NCBI GenBank assembly: GCA_035574235.1
Contig: DATLZA010000165.1
Span: forward strand, 1 to 50,644
DNA: 50,644 nt
DNA from: Planctomycetota bacterium
GTDB lineage: Bacteria; Planctomycetota; MHYJ01; JACPRB01
Direction: 5' to 3'
Part shown: piece after piece, positions 30,084 to 48,153 of the stretch
How positions within the stretch are numbered: position 1 is the stretch's first letter
Layout: the number at the start of each line of letters is the position of its first letter
The notes under the pieces: generated by a model
What the model saw: the letters and a program-made list of their open reading frames with translations, nothing else
Told to the model about the DNA's origin: nothing
Database searches by the model: none
Program-made: the position numbers and the translations under genes

Positions 30084-31124
30084 ATGGCTTGCGACATCCG
30101 AGGATTCGCCCGCAGCGGCGGCTGAGCGGGAAAACTGAGTCCGTTGGACTTACAGGGTCTTTTCACCAAGCTCGAGCTGCGCCGCAACGACAACCTGCTC
30201 GTCGGAATCGAAACCAACGACGACGCCGCGATCTACAAGCTCACCGACGACCTGGCGCTCGTCATCACGGCGGACTACATCACGCCGTTCATCGACGATC
30301 CGTACCTGTACGGACAGGTGGCCGCGGCCAACTCCCTGAGCGACGTCTACGCGATGGGGGGCCGTCCCATCACGGCGCTCAACCTCTGCATGTTCCCCGT
30401 GGCCGCCGGGGCCGACGTCCTCTCGCGCGTCCTGCAGGGGGGCCTCGACAAGATCCACGAGGCGGGCGCCCTCCTCGTCGGCGGCCATACGGTCAAGGAC
30501 GAGGAAATGAAGTACGGCCTGTCCGTCAACGGGATCGTCAACCCGCGGCACTACACCCCGAACTCGGGAGCGCGCCCGGACGACCGCTTCATCCTCACCA
30601 AGCCGGTGGGCAGCGGCGTCTACATCACCGGCGCCCGGCGCGGCGTCATCGCCACCGAAGACCTCCTCCCGGTGGCCCGCACGATGGCCGAGCTCAACCG
30701 CGTCGCCTGCGAAACAATGATGGAATTCGACGCTCGGGGCGCCACGGACATCACGGGCTTCGGCCTGGGCGGACATACCCTGTCCATGGCCCGGGCCTCC
30801 AGGATCGGCATCCGCTTCTTCTACGACGCGATCCCGCGGTTCCCGAAAACCCTGGACCTCATCGGCATGGGCGTGATGACGGGTCTGACGGGCCCCAACT
30901 TCAAGCTCATCGAAAGCGGCATCGTCTTCCGGGACGGCTTCAGCGACGTCGAGAAGGCCCTCTTCTGGGACCCCCAGACGTCGGGCGGACTCTTCTTCGG
31001 CGTGCGCGCCAGGGACGTCGAGGCGTGCCTCCGCAAGCTTCATGAACGCGGCGTCACGGACGCGCGCATCGTGGCGGAGGCGTTCCCCGCGGACAAACCC
31101 CGTCTGGAAGTCGTCCGCGGGTAA
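30084..31124 (+). CDS. selD: Selenophosphate synthetase, itself a selenoprotein
   Basis: SelD makes selenophosphate, the selenium donor for Sec-tRNA, from selenide and ATP. The true start is ATG 30084 with a GGAGG ribosome site; 13 codons later a UGA (30123-30125) is read as Sec14 in ARSGG-U-AGKLSPLDL. It takes the place of the active-site Cys of E. coli SelD (GAGCGCK), and the essential Lys follows as Lys17. The ATP-grasp-like AIRS domains follow: VITADYITPFIDDPYLYGQVAAANSLSDVYAMGG (landmarks ADYITPFIDDP and SLSDVYAMGG), VGGHTVKDEEMKYGL, TDITGFGLGGH and DPQTSGGLF. Total length is 346 residues. A hairpin begins 9 nt after the UGA. A TTG start after the UGA would delete the catalytic residues. 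Confidence 0.92.
30123..30155 (+). promoter_or_regulatory. Sec UGA and SECIS-like hairpin of selD
   Basis: UGA at 30123-30125. CTG-AGTCC (30135-30142) pairs with GGACT-(TA)-CAG (30146-30155) around loop GUU, with a two-base bulge on the 3' side. The loop starts 17 nt after the UGA and with G. Confidence 0.7.
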
Positions 31125-38129: not shown

Positions 38130-39125
38130 CTACCCTCTCAGGGCGGCGACGACCTCGCGGCGCAGGCGCCGCACGTCCGTGGCCTCTCCCGAACGCACCC
38201 GGTTGGTCAGGAGGACGACGAAGCGGCGGCGCGCCGGATCCATCCAGACGAGCGTGCCGGTGAACCCGGTATGCCCCACGCCGGGGGCGAAGGGGGGCTC
38301 GTCGAAGATGTCCCAGCCCAGCCCGCGGCGATCGCCTCCGGGTCGATCCTGGGGCGAGAACATCGCCTGCAGAGTTTCCGGACGGAGCAGCCGGCCCGCC
38401 AGGAGCGCCCGGCAGAACCGGGCCAGGTCGTCCCCCGTGGAAAAGAGCCCCGCATTGCCGGGCTGCCGATCCGCCGTCTCGTACGCCCGCGCGAGCGGGT
38501 CGTGCACGCGACCCGCCGGCTCGTCCGACGTGGGGGCGCACCGGGCCGGGTCGGGGTCGAACCCGGTATCCTTCATCCCGAGGGGCTTGAAGATCCTCTC
38601 CTCGGCGAACCGGCCGAGGGGAATTCCCGCCGCCTCCTCGACCAACCGGCCGAGGACGATCATGTTGAGTCAGCTGTAGACGGGCTTTTCGCGCCGCACG
38701 GGAAGCACCGCGATCTCCTCGAGGATGCTCTCCGGACTCCGCCGGCGTGGGGTGAGGTACGCGGGCAGGCCCGAACGGTGCGCCAGGAGATCGCGGACCG
38801 TCACCGGCCGGCCCGCGAGGGCCGCCAGGAATTCGCCCACCGGCCGGTCGAGCGCCAGCCGCCCTTCCTCGACCAGCATCATCGCCGCCGTCGTCGTGGC
38901 CACGACCTTCGTCACGGAGGCGAGGTCGAAGACCGTGTCCGGACGCGCCTCGCCGAACGCCTTCCGGTACAGGATGCGGTCCCCCTCCCCCGCCACGACG
39001 ACCGCCGCCGGAATGCGGTCCTCCTGAAGAATCCGCGCCACGAGCGCGTCGAGCGGAGCGTCCGCCGGCGCGCCGCGGCACGCCGCCAGCGCCGCCCCCA
39101 GAAGAAATCCCGCGGCTATCCGCAT
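38130..39125 (-). CDS. Beta-lactamase-fold serine hydrolase with Sec in the YxN motif
   Basis: The 331-residue exported protein (signal peptide/lipobox AALAAC) belongs to the class C beta-lactamase/CubicO family. The catalytic SxxK is Ser70-Val-Thr-Lys73. A UGA (38670-38672) places Sec152 in KPVYS-U-LNMIVLGRLVEEAAG, the second motif (YxN/YSD/YSC in relatives). HTGFTG replaces KTG near residue 280. The protein continues for 179 residues beyond the UGA with full family character. A 9-bp stem with GGUU loop lies 13 nt after the UGA. It overlaps the class IV aminotransferase gene by 10 nt. A peptidase or esterase role is likely; beta-lactam resistance is unlikely. Confidence 0.8.
38635..38672 (-). 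promoter_or_regulatory. Sec UGA and SECIS-like hairpin of the serine hydrolase gene
   Basis: UGA at 38670-38672 (minus). After 13 nt, TCCTCGGCC pairs with GGTCGAGGA (one G-U pair, 9 bp) around loop GGUU at 38644-38647. The loop starts 22 nt after the UGA. It is the best SECIS match in the window. Confidence 0.75.
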
Positions 39126-39943
39126 TCGCTTCCGACCAGCTCCCGGAACGCGGCGCGCAGCCGGGCCGTCACCGGCCCCGGAGCCAGAGGCTTCCCGTCC
39201 AGGGCCGTCACCGGCATGATCTCGGCCGTCGTCCCGGTCATGAAAATCTCGTCGGCCTGCCGCGCTTCGGGAAGCTTCACGGGGCGTTCTTCGACGGAAA
39301 TGTCCAGCCGGCGGGCCAGGAAGAGCGCGATCTCGCGGGTGATCCCGTTGAGGATCCGGGAATCGGCCGGATGCGTCCGCAGGACGTTCTTGAAGACGAA
39401 GAAGGCGTTCGACGCCGTGCCTTCGGTGACGGATCCGTCGTCGCGCACGAAGAGCCCTTCGTCGCATCCGGACTCCACGGCTTTCTGGCGCGCCAGAATG
39501 TTGGGCAGCAGGCAGATCGTCTTGAGGTGGCAGCGTCCCCAGCGGTCGTCGGGAACGGAGCGGAGCGTGTAGGTTTTGCTCTCGGGAGCGGGCTGGAGGG
39601 GACGCGCGTACGCCAGCACAGTGGGCCGGATCCCGGACGGAAACGCGTGGGCCCGGGGAGCCGCCCCGCGCGTGATCTGAAGATAGATCGTGGCCTCCTT
39701 GAGGGACCCGAGGACCTGCCGGCAGATCTCGGCCAGCCGCGGAAGCGGTTCCGGCGGCGGGATCCGCACGCCTTCCAGGCTCCGCTCCAGCCGGGCCAGG
39801 TGCGCGTCCAATCGAAAAGGCCGGCCGTTGTAGACCCGGATGACTTCGTAAACGCCGTCGCCGAACTGGAACCCGCGGTCCTCCACGGACACGCGCCCTT
39901 CCTCCAGCGGAAGCAACGAGCCGTTCAGATAGAGCGTCGTCAT
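39116..39943 (-). CDS. Class IV aminotransferase (D-amino-acid or branched-chain type)
   Basis: The 275-residue fold-type IV PLP enzyme has GDGVYEVIRVYNGRPFRLDAHLARLE at the N-terminus (landmarks GDGVYEVIRV and HLARLE), the PLP lysine in HLKTICLLPNILARQ and the Glu of DGSVTEGTASN. This set of signatures matches D-alanine aminotransferases (RVYNGRPF). It could supply D-amino acids for the wall or act on branched-chain amino acids. Its end overlaps the serine hydrolase start by 10 nt; a link to D-amino-acid-containing peptides is tempting but unproven. TATACT lies 8 nt before the ATG. Confidence 0.85.
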   Translation of the reverse strand: MTTLYLNGSLLPLEEGRVSVEDRGFQFGDGVYEVIRVYNGRPFRLDAHLARLERSLEGVRIPPPEPLPRLAEICRQVLGSLKEATIYLQITRGAAPRAHAFPSGIRPTVLAYARPLQPAPESKTYTLRSVPDDRWGRCHLKTICLLPNILARQKAVESGCDEGLFVRDDGSVTEGTASNAFFVFKNVLRTHPADSRILNGITREIALFLARRLDISVEERPVKLPEARQADEIFMTGTTAEIMPVTALDGKPLAPGPVTARLRAAFRELVGSECG

Positions 39944-39991
39944 GGCCCCCGAGTATACTTCGGCGACGGGGCGACTGCACCGATCCGACGT

Positions 39992-41125
39992 TCAGGGGAT
40001 CGGCCGTTCGTAGATGCGCGCCTCCCGCAACCCCGCGCGCGCGTCCAGCTCGTTTTGGATGCGAATGCGGGCGGGGACATCGAACGTCTTGTGGTAGTGC
40101 GGCCGGAGCTCCTCCCATCGCTTCCAGAGAATCTCCCCGTCCGCCGAGTCTCCGAGCTGCCCGGTGCGGTGCAGGGTGCGCGCCACCAGAATCTCCTCGC
40201 ACCAGAAGCAGAAACGGTCGAGGTCCCGCAGCATGGCGCCGCGGCGGCTCCGATCAAGGGTCCAATTGTCGTGCGTTCCGTTCATGAGGCACCGGGCCTC
40301 GCTGTGCCAGGCCCCTTCTTCGGCGACGCCTCCCACCCAGAGCACCCCGATGACGCTTTCGGGATCCGGGTTGATCTCGCTCCCCGGCGAAAGATGGGCC
40401 CAGGGAAGCAGGCGCCGCTCTTTCGTGTGGGCGATGTTGGAGACGGTGAAGAGCGAAGGCCGGTCCGGCGTGCGCCGCTCGGCCCTCAGCCCCGCCGCGC
40501 GGATGTATTCGTCCCGCAGCCCCCCATAAGCATGCCCGAATTCGTGATGGGCGTTGGCGGCGAATCCGACCGCCACGGAGAGGGCCCCGTCCGGAGAGGC
40601 GATCTCCCGGGCCAGTCCGCTCGGTTGCATTCCGCGCTCGTTGAGGACGAGCATGACGACGGTCGTGTGCGTGAGCCGCCCCCCGGTCCGCACGCGCGCG
40701 GCGTCCAGACGCTCGAGCGCCCGGAAGATGCCGGCGCGGGTCTGCGGTCCGGCGACATCCCCGACGTCGAACGGGGTGGACGCGATCGCGTAGCGGGAAC
40801 GCCGTTCCCGGGAGGCCCGGGCGGCGCCCGGGGTCCAAAGCCCCCGAACCCGGAAGGCTCCGCGGAACTCCCTCCAGGGAACGTAGGTCAGGAAGCGATC
40901 GTACCAGCCCAGGACGTCGCGCTCGAAGCGCTCCCGCTCGTCCTCGAGATATCCGTCGCCCAGGATGACGACCTCGAGCCGGCGCTCCGGGGGGATCTCG
41001 ACCCGCCGCCCGGGATTTCGCAGGTCGGGCACCCAGGGGCGCTCTTCGGGACTGGCCGCGATGACGTCTTCCTGGGCGGCGCCGGTGCACGCCAGGACGA
41101 AGAGGCCGGCGACGATCAGGGGCAT
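39992..41125 (-). CDS. Secreted M64 (IgA peptidase-type) metallopeptidase
   Basis: The 377-residue protein has a signal peptide (IVAGLFVLACTG), then LEVVILGDGYLEDERERFERD, and the zinc motif HHEFGHAYGGLRDEY typical of family M64, with the third ligand Asp or Tyr in the following turn. It would act outside the cytoplasm on protein substrates. The 16-bp hairpin at 41149-41184 sits in its leader region, so it may be separately expressed from the upstream HMA gene. Confidence 0.87.
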   Translation of the reverse strand: MPLIVAGLFVLACTGAAQEDVIAASPEERPWVPDLRNPGRRVEIPPERRLEVVILGDGYLEDERERFERDVLGWYDRFLTYVPWREFRGAFRVRGLWTPGAARASRERRSRYAIASTPFDVGDVAGPQTRAGIFRALERLDAARVRTGGRLTHTTVVMLVLNERGMQPSGLAREIASPDGALSVAVGFAANAHHEFGHAYGGLRDEYIRAAGLRAERRTPDRPSLFTVSNIAHTKERRLLPWAHLSPGSEINPDPESVIGVLWVGGVAEEGAWHSEARCLMNGTHDNWTLDRSRRGAMLRDLDRFCFWCEEILVARTLHRTGQLGDSADGEILWKRWEELRPHYHKTFDVPARIRIQNELDARAGLREARIYERPIP

Positions 41126-41148
41126 GGAATCGGTCCTTCCGGGGACGG

Positions 41149-41184
41149 CCGGAGCCTCCGGGGCGGCGGCCCCGGAGGCTCCGG
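41149..41184 (-). terminator. Perfect 16-bp GC hairpin between the HMA and M64 genes
   Basis: CCGGAGCCTCCGGGGC and GCCCCGGAGGCTCCGG pair perfectly around loop GGCG, beginning 13 nt after the HMA stop codon. No U-run follows on the minus strand, so it may act as a factor-dependent terminator, an attenuator or an RNA-stabilising end. Confidence 0.55.
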
Positions 41185-41197
41185 TTGGATTCGCGAA

Positions 41198-41701
41198 CTA
41201 CCCTTTGGCCTCCGACACCTGAAGGAGGGTCAGCGTCTGATTGCCCTTGGCGTCCTCCGAGAGAACCCCGTACAGGACGAAGGGGCCCTCTTTCCCTTTC
41301 AGGCCGCTCAGGAAATCCTGGGCGCCCTCTTCTTTGGAGTTGGCCAGAAGGAGCGATCCCGCGTACAGCTTTCCGCCTTTCTCGGTCACCTTGGACGTCA
41401 CCTTGAGTTTCACCTGGCCGACCTTGTACCGGCCGACGGCCTTGGTGATGTCGGCCATCTTCAGCTTTGGAAACTCCCCGAAGCGCACGATATACGTCCC
41501 GGTTCCCGACTGAAAATCATCCTGCTCCACCGCTTTAGAGCCTGCCAGGCTCTTCAGGCCGTTCATGACGGCCTTGCCTCAGCTCGTCGGTCAGCTCAGG
41601 CCGCTGACCGTGACCCGAAGCTCGTGCACGTCCTCCAGGGCCGCCCCCGCGTTCGCCGCCGCGAGCGCAAGGACGCCCGCCACCACTGCCGCTGTCTTCA
41701 T
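41198..41701 (-). CDS. HMA-like exported protein with two selenocysteines
   Basis: The frame from ATG 41701 crosses two UGAs (41591-41593, 41579-41581) and ends at 41198, giving 167 residues. After a signal peptide (AVVAGVLALAAANAGA), a heavy-metal-associated-like domain reads VTVSGLS-U37-PTS-U41-GKAVMNGLKSL. The usual domain has GMxCxxC at this place, so the two Sec residues stand where metal-binding Cys normally are, with three instead of two residues between. A second domain of about 70 residues follows. Upstream ORF continuity, signal peptide and two hairpins support read-through. A TGA-start overlap (ATGA) links it to the upstream membrane gene. Metal or selenide binding is inferred. Confidence 0.75.
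41537..41593 (-). promoter_or_regulatory. Two Sec UGAs followed by two tandem SECIS-like hairpins
   Basis: UGA1 at 41591-41593 and UGA2 at 41579-41581. Hairpin A, AGGCCGT/ACGGCCT with loop CAUGA (41556-41574), is 23 nt after UGA1. Hairpin B, AGAGCCT/AGGCTCT with loop GGC (41537-41553), places its loop 32 nt after UGA2. Both stems are 7 bp and perfect. Confidence 0.65.
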
Positions 41702-41988
41702 CGCTTACCCTCCTGAAAAGAACCGTTTTTTTGACCGCCGTCGGCCTTGCTTTCTTCCTGCATTCGCGCGATCTCGCGCCGGAGCGCTTCTTCCGCCGCG
41801 CCGTGAGACTCCCGAAACCCGCGCGCCGCAACCCGAACGGCGAGCGCCAGGATTCCTGCGCCGGCGCCCAGGGCCGTGAGGCCCGCGGCGACCCAGGCGG
41901 TCCGGTCCAGAACTCCGCCCGCACCCGCCGCCAGCAAACCGCCGGCGACCAGGCCCGAGCCCAGCCACGAGCGCGCGCGGAGCGTCAC
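41698..41988 (-). CDS. Hypothetical small membrane protein
   Basis: The 96-residue protein from a GTG start has two hydrophobic segments (about residues 9-26 and 30-52) followed by a charged C-terminal helix (EEALRREIARMQEESKADG), so the tail likely faces the cytoplasm. Its stop overlaps the HMA gene start (ATGA), so they form a coupled pair. Family not recognised. Confidence 0.6.
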   Translation of the reverse strand: MTLRARSWLGSGLVAGGLLAAGAGGVLDRTAWVAAGLTALGAGAGILALAVRVAARGFRESHGAAEEALRREIARMQEESKADGGQKNGSFQEGKR

Positions 41989-42002
41989 CTCAGGTATCCG
42001 AA

Positions 42003-42029
42003 AAGGTTATACGGATGGGGTTCTTCCCC
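42003..42029 (-). terminator. Weak terminator-like element after pntB
   Basis: GGGG-AAGAA-CCCC on the minus strand (42017-42029) lies 21 nt beyond the pntB stop and is followed by a CCTTTT tract (42003-42008). The 4-bp stem is short. Confidence 0.3.
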
Positions 42030-42050
42030 GTTCGACCCGGACCGAAGGAT

Positions 42051-43499
42051 TTATACCGCCCCGTCTTTGAGCGCCTGGGCGAGTTTGGCGAGGGTCTGCT
42101 TGGCGTCGCCGAAGACCATCATCGTGTTCGGCTGAACGAAAAGCTCGTTCTCGATCCCCGCGAATCCGGGATTCATGCTTCGCTTCAGGACGATGACGGC
42201 CTTGGCCTGGTCCACGTTCAGCACGGGCATCCCGTAGATCGGGCTGCCGGGCGTATTCTTGGCCGCCGGGTTCACGACGTCGTTGGCGCCGACGACCAGC
42301 GCCACGTCCGTGCGCTGGAATTCGTCGTTGATCGTCTCGAGTTCGAAGAGACGGTCGTAAGGAACGTTCGCTTCCGCCAAAAGAACGTTCATGTGGCCGG
42401 GCATGCGCCCCGCCACCGGGTGAATGGCGTACTTCACCTGAATGCCGCGCCGCTCGAGCAGGTCGGCCAGCTCGCGCACCGCGTGCTGCGCCTGGGCCAC
42501 GGCCATGCCGTAGCCCGGGACGATGATGACGGACTGGGCATTCCCCAGGATGGTGGCGGCCTCTTCCGCCGAAGCTTCCTTGACCGTTCCCTTGGCCGCG
42601 GCGGCCGAGACGCCCGCGGCCGACGGCGCCGCTCCGAACCCGCCGAACATGACGTTGGCGAGCGACCGGTTCATGGCCTTGCACATGATCTGCGTCAGGA
42701 TGATGCCCGAGGCCCCGACGAGCGATCCGACGATGATGAGTACATTGTTGCGCAGCACAAATCCCGTGGTCGTCACCGCCATTCCCGAGTACGAATTCAT
42801 GAGCGAGATCACCACCGGCATGTCCGCGCCGCCGATCGGGATGACGACGAGCCATCCGAGAACCAGCGAGAGCACGACCAGCCCTCCGAAGAGCGCCAGG
42901 CTCGCGTCGGCGGCCGGACGCGCGGTCAGAAACGCTCCGATCGCCAGGGCCCCCAGGAGAAGCGCGAGATTCAGAAAATGCTGGCCCGGGAAGAGAATCG
43001 GACGGCCCGAAATCAGTTCCTGAAGCTTGGCGAACGCGGCCATCGACCCCGTGAAGCAGACGCCGCCGATCAGGACCGAAAGATGCACGGGAATGGACCC
43101 CGCCACGTCCAGCGCCTCGGCGCCGGCGATGCCCTGGCGCATGAGGCCGTGCTTGTGCACGAACTCGACCACGGCCACGAGAAGCGACGCCGCCCCGCCG
43201 AAGCCGTTGTAGAGCCCGACCATCTGCGGCATGGCCGTCATCTTCACCTTGTAGGCGGACACCAGGCCGATCGCCGAGCCCAGCGCGACGCCTCCGAGAA
43301 TGATGACCAGATTGTTGATGAGCGCGCCGCCCCGCGTCCCTCCGACTCTCCAGAAGAACGTGGGCACCACCGTCAGCGCCATCGCCGCCATCGAGATGAA
43401 GTTGGCGCGCCGGGCCGTCCGGGGAGACGCCAGGCCCTTCAGGCTCAGCATGAAGAGGAGGGAGGCGAGAAAATAACAGATTTCGACGGGAATGTTCAT
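42051..43499 (-). CDS. pntB: NAD(P) transhydrogenase subunit beta
   Basis: The 482-residue subunit has a membrane domain with about nine hydrophobic helices (PVEICYFLASLLFML at the start) and a C-terminal NADP(H)-binding domain: VIIVPGYGMAVAQAQHAVRELADLL, HPVAGRMPGHMNVLLAEA, GANDVVNPAA and the IYGMPVL segment. It couples proton translocation to hydride transfer from NADH to NADP+. It starts 4 nt inside the end of the preceding subunit gene (ATGA). Confidence 0.95.
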   Translation of the reverse strand: MNIPVEICYFLASLLFMLSLKGLASPRTARRANFISMAAMALTVVPTFFWRVGGTRGGALINNLVIILGGVALGSAIGLVSAYKVKMTAMPQMVGLYNGFGGAASLLVAVVEFVHKHGLMRQGIAGAEALDVAGSIPVHLSVLIGGVCFTGSMAAFAKLQELISGRPILFPGQHFLNLALLLGALAIGAFLTARPAADASLALFGGLVVLSLVLGWLVVIPIGGADMPVVISLMNSYSGMAVTTTGFVLRNNVLIIVGSLVGASGIILTQIMCKAMNRSLANVMFGGFGAAPSAAGVSAAAAKGTVKEASAEEAATILGNAQSVIIVPGYGMAVAQAQHAVRELADLLERRGIQVKYAIHPVAGRMPGHMNVLLAEANVPYDRLFELETINDEFQRTDVALVVGANDVVNPAAKNTPGSPIYGMPVLNVDQAKAVIVLKRSMNPGFAGIENELFVQPNTMMVFGDAKQTLAKLAQALKDGAV

Positions 43500-43786
43500 T
43501 TCTTCTTCTTGAACATTTGAAGCATGCGGTCCGTCACGGCGTAGCCGCCCACCACGTTGATCGTCGCCAGCGTCACCCCGAGGAAGGCCAGCACGCCCTT
43601 GAAGTCCCACGAGGCGTAGACCGCCGCCAGGATCGCGCCCACCAGGGTGATGCCCGAGATCGCGTTCGATCCGGACATGAGCGGCGTATGAAGAAGCGGC
43701 GGCACCTTGGAAATGAGTTCCACCCCGGCCGCCACCGCCAGCGCGAAGATGTAAAAGACCAGGACCCAGTAATGCGCTTCCGTCAT
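43496..43786 (-). CDS. pntAB: NAD(P) transhydrogenase subunit alpha, membrane part
   Basis: The 96-residue protein corresponds to the C-terminal membrane part of PntA, found as a separate subunit (PntA2) in Rhodospirillum and many others. It has helices at about 7-24, 45-66 and 67-85, including a conserved TPLMSGSNAISG motif. It overlaps both neighbours by 4 nt (ATGA), so all three subunits are translationally coupled. Confidence 0.9.
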   Translation of the reverse strand: MTEAHYWVLVFYIFALAVAAGVELISKVPPLLHTPLMSGSNAISGITLVGAILAAVYASWDFKGVLAFLGVTLATINVVGGYAVTDRMLQMFKKKK

Positions 43787-44910
43787 TTCATCGCTTCCTT
43801 CACCTTCGGGTGCACGACCTCCCCTTCCCGCGCGATGACGCACCCGCGGGTGATTTCCTCGTCCAGGTTGATCTTCCAGGCTCCGTCGGCGGTCAGATGG
43901 AGAAGGAGCTTTTCGATGTTCCTCGAGAAGACCAGGCTCGCGTTCTGGGCCACCTGGCTCGGGGCGCTCATCGGTCCGAGGATCGTCACCCCGTGCCGGA
44001 CGACTTCCCTGCCGGGCTCGGTCCCCACGACGTTGCCTCCCTGTTCGGCCGCCAGGTCCACCACGACCGATCCCGGCCGCATCGACCGGAGATGCTCGTC
44101 CGTCACGAGCGTCGGAGCCTTCCGTCCCGGGATGAGGGCGGTCGTGATCACCACGTCCGCCTTCGCAATGGCCTGCGCGATCAGCTCGGCCTGCTTGCGC
44201 TTGTACTCCTCCGACTGCTCGGCGGCGTACCCGCCCTGACCGGTTTTCACTTCCACGCCCTTGACCTCGAGGAACTTGCCCCCGAGGGACTCCACCTGTT
44301 CCTTCGTCTCGGGACGCACGTCGGTGGCCTCCACCACCGCGCCCAGACGGCGCGCCGTGCCGATCGCCTGAAGCCCGGCCACCCCCGCGCCCATGACCAG
44401 CACGCGCGCCGGCGTGAGCGTCCCCGCCGCGGTCATCAGCATCGGGAAAATCTTCGGCAGCTTCGCGGCCGCCGCGACCACGGCCCAGTAGCCGGCCAGA
44501 TTCGCCTGCGACGAGAGAACGTCCATCGCCTGGGCGAGCGTCGTCCGAGGGATCATGTCGAGCGCCACGACGAGCATCCGCCGCGCCGCCAGCGCGCGCA
44601 CAAGGTCCGCGTTGGACAGCGGGTAAAGGAGACTCACCAGCGCCGTCCCTTCCCGGAACCGGGCGATCTCCTCGGGCGCGGGCTTATTCACCTTCACGAT
44701 CGCGTCCGCCCGGGACACGAGCTCCTCCACCGAGGCCACGACCGTGGCCCCCGCGTCCCGGTATTCCGCATCCGACACGAACGCCCCTTCGCCCGCCCCG
44801 GCCTGGACGAGGACCTCGATTTTCCGGGGAGCCAGCTTGCGGACCGTCTCGGGAACGATCGCCACGCGGCGCTCGAACGGAGCGATCTCCCGCGGAATCC
44901 CGATTTTCAT
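43783..44910 (-). CDS. pntAA: NAD(P) transhydrogenase subunit alpha, NAD(H)-binding part
   Basis: The 375-residue soluble subunit is homologous to the PntA N-terminal domain and to alanine dehydrogenase: MKIGIPREIAPFERRVA, LSSQANLAGYWAVV, the Rossmann motif GAGVAGLQAIGTARRLGA and SLVFSRN near the C-terminus. It binds NAD(H) and passes hydride to the NADP-binding subunit. First gene of the pnt operon, with the upstream ALDH gene ending 68 nt away. Split alpha subunit indicates the three-gene type. Confidence 0.94.
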   Translation of the reverse strand: MKIGIPREIAPFERRVAIVPETVRKLAPRKIEVLVQAGAGEGAFVSDAEYRDAGATVVASVEELVSRADAIVKVNKPAPEEIARFREGTALVSLLYPLSNADLVRALAARRMLVVALDMIPRTTLAQAMDVLSSQANLAGYWAVVAAAAKLPKIFPMLMTAAGTLTPARVLVMGAGVAGLQAIGTARRLGAVVEATDVRPETKEQVESLGGKFLEVKGVEVKTGQGGYAAEQSEEYKRKQAELIAQAIAKADVVITTALIPGRKAPTLVTDEHLRSMRPGSVVVDLAAEQGGNVVGTEPGREVVRHGVTILGPMSAPSQVAQNASLVFSRNIEKLLLHLTADGAWKINLDEEITRGCVIAREGEVVHPKVKEAMK

Positions 44911-44978
44911 GGCGAGCCTTCTTACCTTTTCGGGGCGGAGAAATCAAACATTTGATCCGCCGCCCGCGCCGCACGGGC

Positions 44979-46460
44979 TCATTCCGCCGTGTCGATCTGG
45001 GCCTTCTGGAGCCGCCCGCTGTAGTCCACGTAGACCGTCTTCCACTCCGTGAAGACCTCGTAGATCGGATGGGCCCCTTCCCGGTGCCCGTTGCCGGTGC
45101 TCTTCGTGCCCCCGAAGGGAAAGTGACACTCCGCTCCGATCGTCGGCGCGTTCACGTACACGATTCCCGCGTCGATCTCCCGGACGGCGGCGAAGGCCCG
45201 GTTGACGTCGCGCGTGTAGATCGAACTCGACAGCCCGTACTCGACGTCGTTGAGCACCCGAAGCGCCTCGTCCAGGTCGCCGACCGTGAGGACGGCCACG
45301 ACGGGACCGAAGATCTCCTCCCGCGCGATCCGGGCCTCCGGCCGGACGCCGTCGAAGATCGTGGGCTTGTAGAAGCATCCTTTCCGCAGGGCCCCTTCCG
45401 TCGCCGGCTCTCCTCCCAGAACGAGCGATCCTTCCTTGCGGCCCACTTCCACGTAGGCCTGGACCGCTTCGACGCGGGCGGGGTTGATGAGAGGGCCCAC
45501 GTCGGTTTTCTCGTCCAGGCCGTTTCCCAGCCGAAGCGTCCGCGCCCGCGCGAGGAACCGCTGGAGGAAGTCGTCGTGGATCTTCCGATGGAGGATGAGC
45601 CGGGACGTCGCCGTGCAGCGCTGGCCCGTCGTGCCGAACGCCCCCCACAGCGCGCCCTCCAGGGCGAGATCGAGGTCCGCGTCGTCCATCACGATCTGAG
45701 CGTTCTTGCCGCCGAGTTCCAGGGACAGCCGTTTGAGGGCCGGCCCGGCGGCGCCGGCGATCTCGCGCCCCGCGGCCGACGACCCCGTGAAGCTGAGGAC
45801 CCGCACGTCGGGATGGCGCACGAGCGCCGCGCCGACCTCGGAGCCGCGGCCGTGAACGAGGTTGAAGACGCCGGGGGGCACGCCCGCCTCGGCGAGCACC
45901 CGGGCCAGAAGCTCCGCGCAATAAGGCGTATCGCTGGCGGGCTTGAGAACCACGGTGTTCCCGGCCACGAGCGCGGGAAAGGTCTTCCAGGCGGGGATCG
46001 CCATCGGAAAGTTCCAGGGCGTCACCAGGCCGGCCACGCCGATCGGCGCGCGCATCGTCCATCCCGCCTTGTCGGGAAGCTCGCAGGGGGCGGTGAAGCC
46101 GTGCAGGCGGCGACCTTCTCCGGCGTGCAGAAAGGCCGTGTCGATCGCCTCCTGGACGTCGCCCCGGGCTTCCTGGATCACCTTGCCCATCTCGCGCGTC
46201 ATCGCCCGGGCCAGTTCCTCCTTGCGCGCGCGGAGCAGCTCGCCGGCGCGGAAGAGGATCTCTCCGCGCCGGGGCGCCGGGGTGCGGCGCCACGCGGGAA
46301 ACGCCCGGCGGGCCGCCGCGACCGCGTCCTCCACGTCCTCGGGACCGCTGGCCGGGAACTCCCCGATCACGTCTTCGAGATCCGCCGGGTTGCGGTCCTG
46401 GAAGGTCCGGCCGCTCCGCGCCGGGACCCACCGCCCGTCGATGTAGTTGAAGCATTTCAT
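44979..46460 (-). CDS. Aldehyde dehydrogenase family protein (semialdehyde-type)
   Basis: The 493-residue NAD(P)-dependent dehydrogenase shows [24 protein letters not shown], the catalytic Glu in LELGGKNAQ and the catalytic Cys in [12 protein letters not shown], with [10 protein letters not shown] and [25 protein letters not shown] at the C-terminus. The last block is typical of ketoglutarate-semialdehyde/alpha-aminoadipate-semialdehyde-type ALDHs. The substrate is uncertain. It starts at ATG 46460, 37 nt after the ETF-QO gene. Confidence 0.88.
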
Positions 46461-46497
46461 GGCGATCCGCCTTTCCTCCCTTCCCGTTCCCCGCGGG

Positions 46498-48153
46498 TCA
46501 CAGGTTCTGGTACGACGGGCCCCCGCCTCCCTCCGGGGGCACCCATCGGATGATGCCGTAGGGATCCATGATGTCGCACGTCTTGCAATGGACGCAGTTG
46601 GAGGCATTGATCTGAAGGCGGCCCACGTCCTTCTCGTCCTTCCGGACCCACTCGTAGACCGCCGCGGGACAGAAATGCTGGCAGGGGTTCCCGTATTCGC
46701 GCACGCAGCGGGACACGCAGAGATCCGGCTCGAGAACGAGCAGGTGGCACGGCTGATCCTCCTCGTGCATCGTGCCCGACACGTAAAGGTCCGAGAGCTT
46801 CGAAAACGTCAGCCGGTCGTCGAACGCAATCCGCGCCGGCCGCGCCTGGGGGGTGCCGTGGTAGCGCTCGATCGTCTGCATCCGCGTGTGACCCGGCGCC
46901 AGACGAACGCCCGCGAAGGGGCTCCAGCCGCCGGATACCTCGGCGAAGGCGGCTCCCAGAAGACCGGCGGCGAATCCGTATTTGAATCCCTTCTTAAAGT
47001 GCCGGGACTTCCAGAGCTCCCGGCGGATGAAGCTCCCTTCGATGCGCGCGCCGTACGACGCCAGCGTCCGGTCGGAGAAGTCCCCCTTCTCCAGCGCCTC
47101 GAACGCCGTCTCCGCCGCCAGCATGCCGCTTTTCAGGGCCAGATGGACGCCCTTGAGCCGCTGGGGATCCAGGAGCCCCGCGCCATCCCCGGCCAGGAGC
47201 GCCCCCGGCATGTGCAGGCGGGGCACCGAATACCAGCCCCCCTCGGGGATGGTCTTGGCGCCGTATTCGACGAGGCGCCCGCCTTCGAGCATCGACCGGA
47301 TCTTCGGGTGCGTCTTGAAGCGCTGGAACTCGTGGTGCGAATCGGTGAACGGATCCTTGTAATCGAGCCCGACCACGAACCCGATGTCGAGCCGGTCCCG
47401 GGACATGGAGTAGATGAATCCGCCGCCGAACTGGTCGTTCCGCAGCGGCCATCCCATCGTGTGGATCACGCGGCCGCGCGGAACGGTCCCGGCAGGAAGC
47501 TCCCAGATCTCCTTGACCCCCGCGGCGTAAACCTGAGGCTGGCGTCCTTCGTCGAGCCGGAAGCGCTCGACGAGCAGCCGCGTGAGCGATCCGCGCGGGC
47601 CTTCGCTCACGACGGTGACCTTCGCCCGAAGATCCACCCCGGGCTCGAAGTTGGGTTTCCGCTGTCCGCGGCGATCCACCCCCTTGTCGCCCGTGCGCAC
47701 GCCGACCACGCGCCCCTCTTCGATGAGGGGCTCCACCGCCGCGAAGCCCGGGAAAAGATTCACCCCCAGCGCCTCCGCCTGCCGGCCGAGCCACCGCACC
47801 AGCTGCGCGAGCGACACGATGAGATGTCCGTGGTTGCGGAGGGAAGGCGGCGTGAAAGGCAGCGCCGCGCACTCGTCCCGAGTGAGAAACCAGACGTAGT
47901 CCTCTTCCACGGGCGATTCGATCGGCGCCCCCTGAGATTCGAAGTCCGGGAAAAGCTCCCGAAGCGACTTCGGGTCCATGACCGCGCCGGAGAGGGTATG
48001 AGCTCCGATTTCCCGTGCCTTGTCGAGGACCGCGATGTTGACCGCCCGGCCGGACGCCTTGGCAAGCTGGGCCAGGCGGATGGCTCCTCCCAATCCGGCC
48101 GGACCGGCGCCGACGAAAAGAACGTCCACCTCGAGGACTTCGCGCTCGGCCAT
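46498..48153 (-). CDS. etfD: Electron-transfer flavoprotein:quinone oxidoreductase
   Basis: The 551-residue enzyme passes electrons from ETF to the quinone pool. It has the FAD motif VGAGPAGLGGAIRLAQLA, the quinone-binding IPEGGWYSVPRLHMPGALLAGDGAG (landmarks GGWYSVPRL and LLAGDGAGLLDP), and a C-terminal 4Fe-4S ferredoxin part with CVSRC, CQHFCPAAVYE and NCVHCKTCDI. The presence of ETF-QO fits oxidation of acyl-CoA by acyl-CoA dehydrogenases. TACAAT lies 10 nt before the ATG, without a Shine-Dalgarno sequence. Confidence 0.94.
   Translation of the reverse strand: MAEREVLEVDVLFVGAGPAGLGGAIRLAQLAKASGRAVNIAVLDKAREIGAHTLSGAVMDPKSLRELFPDFESQGAPIESPVEEDYVWFLTRDECAALPFTPPSLRNHGHLIVSLAQLVRWLGRQAEALGVNLFPGFAAVEPLIEEGRVVGVRTGDKGVDRRGQRKPNFEPGVDLRAKVTVVSEGPRGSLTRLLVERFRLDEGRQPQVYAAGVKEIWELPAGTVPRGRVIHTMGWPLRNDQFGGGFIYSMSRDRLDIGFVVGLDYKDPFTDSHHEFQRFKTHPKIRSMLEGGRLVEYGAKTIPEGGWYSVPRLHMPGALLAGDGAGLLDPQRLKGVHLALKSGMLAAETAFEALEKGDFSDRTLASYGARIEGSFIRRELWKSRHFKKGFKYGFAAGLLGAAFAEVSGGWSPFAGVRLAPGHTRMQTIERYHGTPQARPARIAFDDRLTFSKLSDLYVSGTMHEEDQPCHLLVLEPDLCVSRCVREYGNPCQHFCPAAVYEWVRKDEKDVGRLQINASNCVHCKTCDIMDPYGIIRWVPPEGGGGPSYQNL

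Follow-up and report, generated by a model that had tools for sequence, protein, structure and literature searches.

The window, by which we mean the whole stretch of 50,644 nucleotides that was analysed, carries on its reverse strand a gene in which two TGA triplets lie in frame, at codons 37 and 41, and give the loop S-U-P-T-S-U-G (U37-PTS-U41) when both are read as selenocysteine (Sec, U) (Table 1). The window contains the TGA..TGA pattern a single time, 100 shuffles never produced it, and a conventional listing of open reading frames returns just a 122-aa fragment of the locus, starting at Met46. A Shine-Dalgarno site precedes the start codon, as it does the aligned ATG of the five closest homologues (GGAG or AGGAGG in 5/5), and the overlap of this ATG with the stop codon of a membrane-like ORF suggests that the two genes are translationally coupled. 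The N-termini of relatives are similar to that of the window protein, which resembles a signal peptide, or else lipoprotein-like, and the protein is probably exported. Neighbouring genes, named from their translations, are of housekeeping or redox type (ETF-QO, aldehyde dehydrogenase, PntAB and an aminotransferase), and no metal-resistance gene was recognised among them. This neighbourhood (39116-48153 of the window, reverse strand) is partly conserved across the family's genera, as seen at L013, L014 and L011.

Table 1. Features of the selenoprotein gene, its surroundings and selD in the window.
Feature	Position	Strand	Remark
Selenoprotein CDS, 167 aa, ATG to TAG	41198..41701	-	two in-frame TGA
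UGA1, Sec37	41591..41593	-	U or C across relatives
UGA2, Sec41	41579..41581	-	U or C across relatives
Shine-Dalgarno AGGAGG, 5' of ATG	41709..41714	-	read from sequence
Signal-peptide-like N-terminus (MKTAAVVAGVLALAAANAGA)	41639..41701	-	judged from sequence by eye
HMA-like domain, aa 23-96, beta-alpha-beta-beta-alpha-beta	41414..41635	-	AF2, Foldseek, profile match to CopA/CopZ
C-terminal OB-like beta domain, aa 97-167	41201..41413	-	AF2
Hairpin 1, AGGCCGT-CATGA-ACGGCCT, 7 bp	41556..41574	-	loop 23 nt after UGA1; without loop G
Hairpin 2, AGAGCCT-GGC-AGGCTCT, 7 bp	41537..41553	-	loop 32 nt after UGA2, 44 nt after UGA1
Upstream membrane-like ORF, 96 aa	41698..41988	-	stop overlaps selenogene start (ATGA)
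selD with in-frame TGA at 30123-30125 (SGGUAGK)	30105..31013	+	positive control for Sec decoding

The genome carries selA, selB, selD and a tRNA-Sec with anticodon tca, and so has the host equipment that a selenoprotein requires. In the selD gene of the window a hairpin loop, GTT, starts 17 nt after the UGA, with loop G and spacing as in a published bacterial model of the selenocysteine insertion element (SECIS) (PMC13188914); judged from its sequence, SelD here is a selenoprotein in its own right. One short contig (G000:C10; L003, L128) carries another selD together with another selB-like C-terminus; these may be of foreign origin, the genome being rated 4.66% contaminated.

Relatives and the two Sec positions

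A tblastn search of 149 relatives returned four full-length homologues (32-51% identity), all with both TGAs, in the motifs UKINU, UANNU, UPSAU and UPGTU. A further two-Sec paralogue, with UGESU (GGIUGESU; L011, 6608-7159, reverse strand), lies near the UPSAU gene of the same genome. In sequence comparison both TGAs fall in the same columns in five relatives, and the identity of relatives that keep both UGAs ranges from 19 to 51%. A profile search of 392 genomes of the phylum found UxxxU also in a different family within the class, as well as UxxU, UxxxC, CxxU, UxxC and CxxxC variants; the genome of the window itself has a CxxC paralogue.

The earlier note, made from the letters of the window alone, had placed the two UGAs where heavy-metal-associated (HMA) domains hold their metal-binding Cys pair, had remarked that the three-residue spacing differs from CxxC, and had looked to relatives in which both UGAs vary with Cys. 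All of this is borne out: among 67 members, U and C interchange at exactly these two columns (UxxxU, UxxxC, CxxxC, UxxU and CxxU), and the longer spacing is a trait of the family. A UGA that homologues retain in frame or replace by Cys is the mark of a selenoprotein, and pN is below pS both before and after the UGAs in 15 of 15 pairs. In an approximate tree of the 67 members, built from few columns, the U/C states switch several times. Judged by this comparison, both sites encode Sec. Three proteins of the family (L053, L028, L060) contain tandem Sec-bearing HMA domains, with UGVSU or UxxxC repeated.

A genome search with TGA allowed, as had been proposed, also yielded members: a TGA-specific DNA pattern for the UxxxU site, run on ~85,000 species genomes, gave 54 matches; judging the translations by eye, we read 35 as running on into HMA proteins and 19 as probable chance matches. 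Planctomycetota account for 26 of the 35; the others come from Nitrospinota, Armatimonadota, Poribacteria, Elusimicrobia, Methylomirabilota and Actinomycetota, where single MAG matches may be binning errors. A protein scan for close relatives in the ~85,000-genome contig set found none, the likely reason being that back-translation from Cys yields patterns that do not cover TGA.

UGA is reassigned in some bacteria, and the two TGAs might be read as codons for an ordinary amino acid (Trp or Gly) or set down to sequencing error. We regard this as next to impossible. Both positions align with Cys, never with Trp or Gly; the Sec system, tRNA-Sec included, is complete, and independent assemblies agree. 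Hardly more credible is that the UGAs are stops, with a short leader ORF or a pseudogene ahead of a 122-aa protein from Met46, although an ATG-started ORF does begin there (41566). Met46 is not conserved, being replaced in relatives by Y or (twice) K, so that the internal-start alternative fails. The part upstream of it is conserved and under purifying selection, the Shine-Dalgarno site at the ATG at 41701 is strong, and both UGAs recur in several phyla. The internal start was rejected on the lack of conservation of Met46 and the coding constraint upstream, and Met1 is taken as the true start, which the earlier note had weighed against a start at Met46 only.

Hairpins downstream of the Sec codons

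The predicted fold of the window gene contains hairpins 1 and 2, and their perfect 7-bp stems and loop positions are exactly as first described. In the bacterial SECIS model the loop has 3-9 nt with G in the first two positions, the stem has 4-16 bp, the distance from the UGA is 16-37 nt and the MFE is <= -7.5 (PMC13188914, Fig 2). Measured from UGA2, hairpin 2 agrees with the model (loop GGC, 7 bp, 32 nt, -9.0 kcal/mol); hairpin 1 breaks the loop-G rule, and hairpin 2 is out of range of UGA1 (44 nt vs 16-37). The arrangement given in the earlier note stands as to positions, but the two hairpins are not equivalent. Rfam returned no SECIS family match. Taken alone, the window gene has an overall fold that is only mildly unusual (z -1.45), and a hairpin appears in both zones in 11% of its synonymous recodings; the case is made by the test across the family.

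For that test each gene was compared with its own synonymous recodings, with one representative per cluster. Among representatives that, as related genes, are not fully independent, a loop-G hairpin 31-50 nt after UGA1 was present in 23 of 30 UxxxU genes (expected 5.0, z 9.2); in the first zone, 16 of the 30 had a hairpin (expected 6.3, z 4.6). The UxxxC representatives had a loop-G hairpin at 16-30 nt in 10 of 11 cases (expected 1.2, z 8.9) and none (0/11) in the second zone, and the six CxxxC representatives had hairpins at expectation, with no excess. Members taken into these counts from the ~85,000-genome scan were picked by a pattern with a small number of fixed bases downstream, and the shuffles, because they keep the amino acids, largely keep these bases as well; 11 members of the class were found without the pattern. 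One-Sec genes have a single loop-G hairpin 20-25 nt after the UGA, and in two-Sec genes it lies 20-34 nt past UGA2, frequently preceded by a hairpin without loop G. From the counts by gene class, the loop-G hairpin is thus positioned relative to the last Sec codon.

Covariation lay above every shuffle in three groups, with compensatory changes in hairpin 2 (at one pair, CG 7, UA 4, GC 1 and GU 1); between the window gene and L005, a stem A-U is exchanged for C-G through two amino-acid changes and pairing is kept. A strong contiguous hairpin is missing from some UxxxU genes (L020-L022, L123 and L126 among them), and the folding energy of the whole 60 nt against synonymous recoding was weakly informative (mean z -0.8), local hairpins being the better measure. 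On this comparative evidence the hairpins are under selection. In three one-Sec relatives (L039, L043, L055) the SECIS loop is GGTCT, which we take to be the loop of the E. coli fdhF SECIS.

Each hairpin might serve its own codon independently, hairpin 1 for UGA1 and hairpin 2 for UGA2, and the distances of 23 and 32 nt, both within 16-37 nt, together with the enrichment of hairpins in both zones of two-Sec genes, speak for such a division. We nevertheless find it doubtful. The SelB-type loop G is missing in 14 of the 16 hairpin 1 representatives (just 2 have it), compared with 0 of 10 one-Sec hairpins and 0 of 23 hairpin 2 representatives, and pairing is less consistent in hairpin 1 (60-76% of cells) than in hairpin 2 (90-97%). 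Moreover, the loop-G hairpin occupies one of two registers after UGA1, about 35 or 43-46 nt, and the first hairpin (loop at 20-28 nt) accompanies about two-thirds of the genes in the 43-46 register but is absent from those in the 35 register, a correlation that is partly geometric because two hairpins would overlap in the latter. The two-Sec genes of the 35 register, which have no loop in that range, show a second loop-G hairpin to be dispensable.

Hairpin 2, with its SelB-type loop G, would act as SECIS for UGA2 and possibly for UGA1 as well. We tentatively propose that hairpin 1 is a foldable spacer that lets a single SECIS act on both Sec codons, which are four codons apart, a proposal to which we attach less than even odds. 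When UGA1 is decoded, the folded hairpin 1 (19 nt) would bring the SECIS loop closer, to about 25 nt instead of 44; when UGA2 is decoded, hairpin 1, which starts no more than 5 nt from the codon, would be covered and melted by the ribosome, leaving 32 nt. Genes in the register near 35 nt, whose loop G lies 23 nt from UGA2, would need no spacer.

Fold, putative function and known systems

The AlphaFold2 model (pLDDT 89) has a beta-alpha-beta-beta-alpha-beta domain, the topology of the HMA fold, followed by a beta-rich OB-like domain of which the earlier note had made no mention. Comparison with HMA folds, which that note had suggested, favoured them: in Foldseek the first domain matched the HMA domains of CopA, MerP and ATP7B at TM 0.6-0.7, none with E<=0.001. 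The OB-like domain gave weak Foldseek matches to PriB/RPA OB folds, and the whole protein no significant match. Against the PDB, a profile of five close homologues found CopA at 1.7e-6 and a wider family profile, which includes recognisable HMA members, found an HMA protein at 1.8e-43; the matches were CopA, CopZ and MerP, and the profile of the OB domain had none. In Pfam the window protein alone had no match, HMA (PF00403) included, and several relatives score above the PF00403 cut-off. The GMxCxxC metal-binding motif of HMA is absent from the window protein, which has SxUxxxU, one residue longer and with Sec for Cys. By these profile comparisons the first domain is homologous to HMA domains.

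Our reading, to which we give a probability of about three in four, is that the gene encodes an exported HMA-type and OB-like selenoprotein in which both UGAs are Sec, with hairpin 2 as SECIS and a soft-metal function. The SelA/SelB/SelD/tRNA-Sec system would read both UGAs, and in the metal-binding loop of this MerP/CopZ-like domain, S-U-PTS-U-G, both chalcogen ligands would be selenocysteine. The fold and the relatives suggest a carrier whose two selenolates would bind or pass on a soft metal (Cu(I), Hg(II), Ag(I) or similar), and the oxidised form would be a reversible diselenide; either a diselenide or a metal site with Se ligands would be plausible.

We think it unlikely that the protein is instead a periplasmic thiol/diselenide redox protein, its UxxxU pair cycling between diselenol and diselenide. 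Redox activity is typical of most known selenoproteins, redox genes adjoin the selenogene, and one relative (L111, 2-877, reverse strand) runs on from HMA(UxxxU) into sequence that by eye resembles the DsbD N-terminus (GWHIY), which Pfam did not confirm. Against this, the fold and all profile matches are those of HMA metal-binding domains, and another relative (L125, 1609-2592, reverse strand) joins MerTP, HMA(UxxxU) and CopZ N-terminal zinc/[2Fe-2S] domains in one protein.

Among known proteins, CopZ and the N-terminal HMA domains of CopA, which are similar to the window protein in fold and profile, are cytoplasmic and have CxxC and no Sec. Selenoprotein L and the Prx-like 2 UxxU proteins have two close Sec and could form a diselenide; they differ from the HMA-type window protein in their thioredoxin and peroxiredoxin folds and two-residue spacing. 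Sec-containing mercuric transport (MerP-like) proteins have been listed before (PMC2398784, PMC13188914). MerP (TIGR02052) is likewise an exported HMA domain, if the window protein is exported as its N-terminus suggests; MerP and the MerP-like selenoproteins have CxxC or C/SxxU motifs, and no mer genes were recognised near the window gene. At the TIGR02052 cut-off of 92.55 bits the window protein had no match, and the best relative listed scored 59 bits.

The NCBIfam model NF041115 (UxxU_metal_bind) describes a metal-binding (seleno)protein with two Sec in UxxU (PMC13188914), also an HMA-type domain with Sec at both ligand positions, and 27 of 28 members of the broad family match it weakly to well. 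The family has UxxxU in place of UxxU, and most of its matches appear to be one residue longer than the model. In scans of individual members the highest score was 85.2 (L096), short of the 95-bit cut-off; the window protein, which differs also in its OB-like C-terminal domain, had no match at E<=1. The terms 'UxxxU' and 'UxxxC' were not found in the literature searched, nor was any characterisation of the predicted double-Sec metal-site proteins. The earlier note's view that such a site would be new for an exported HMA-type domain is therefore upheld in part: double-Sec HMA-type proteins had already been predicted, but the UxxxU spacing and its spread count as new, as do the breadth of the family and the hairpin rule.

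To standard annotation two-Sec genes resemble truncated ORFs, and they are therefore probably often missed. The family is large, lies mostly in one phylum and offers natural U/U, U/C, C/U and C/C versions of the site, which suits it to asking what selenium contributes to a metal-binding loop. It also provides a comparative system for how bacteria insert two Sec a few codons apart, in which the number and position of loop-G hairpins track the Sec codons and give direct predictions for reporters.
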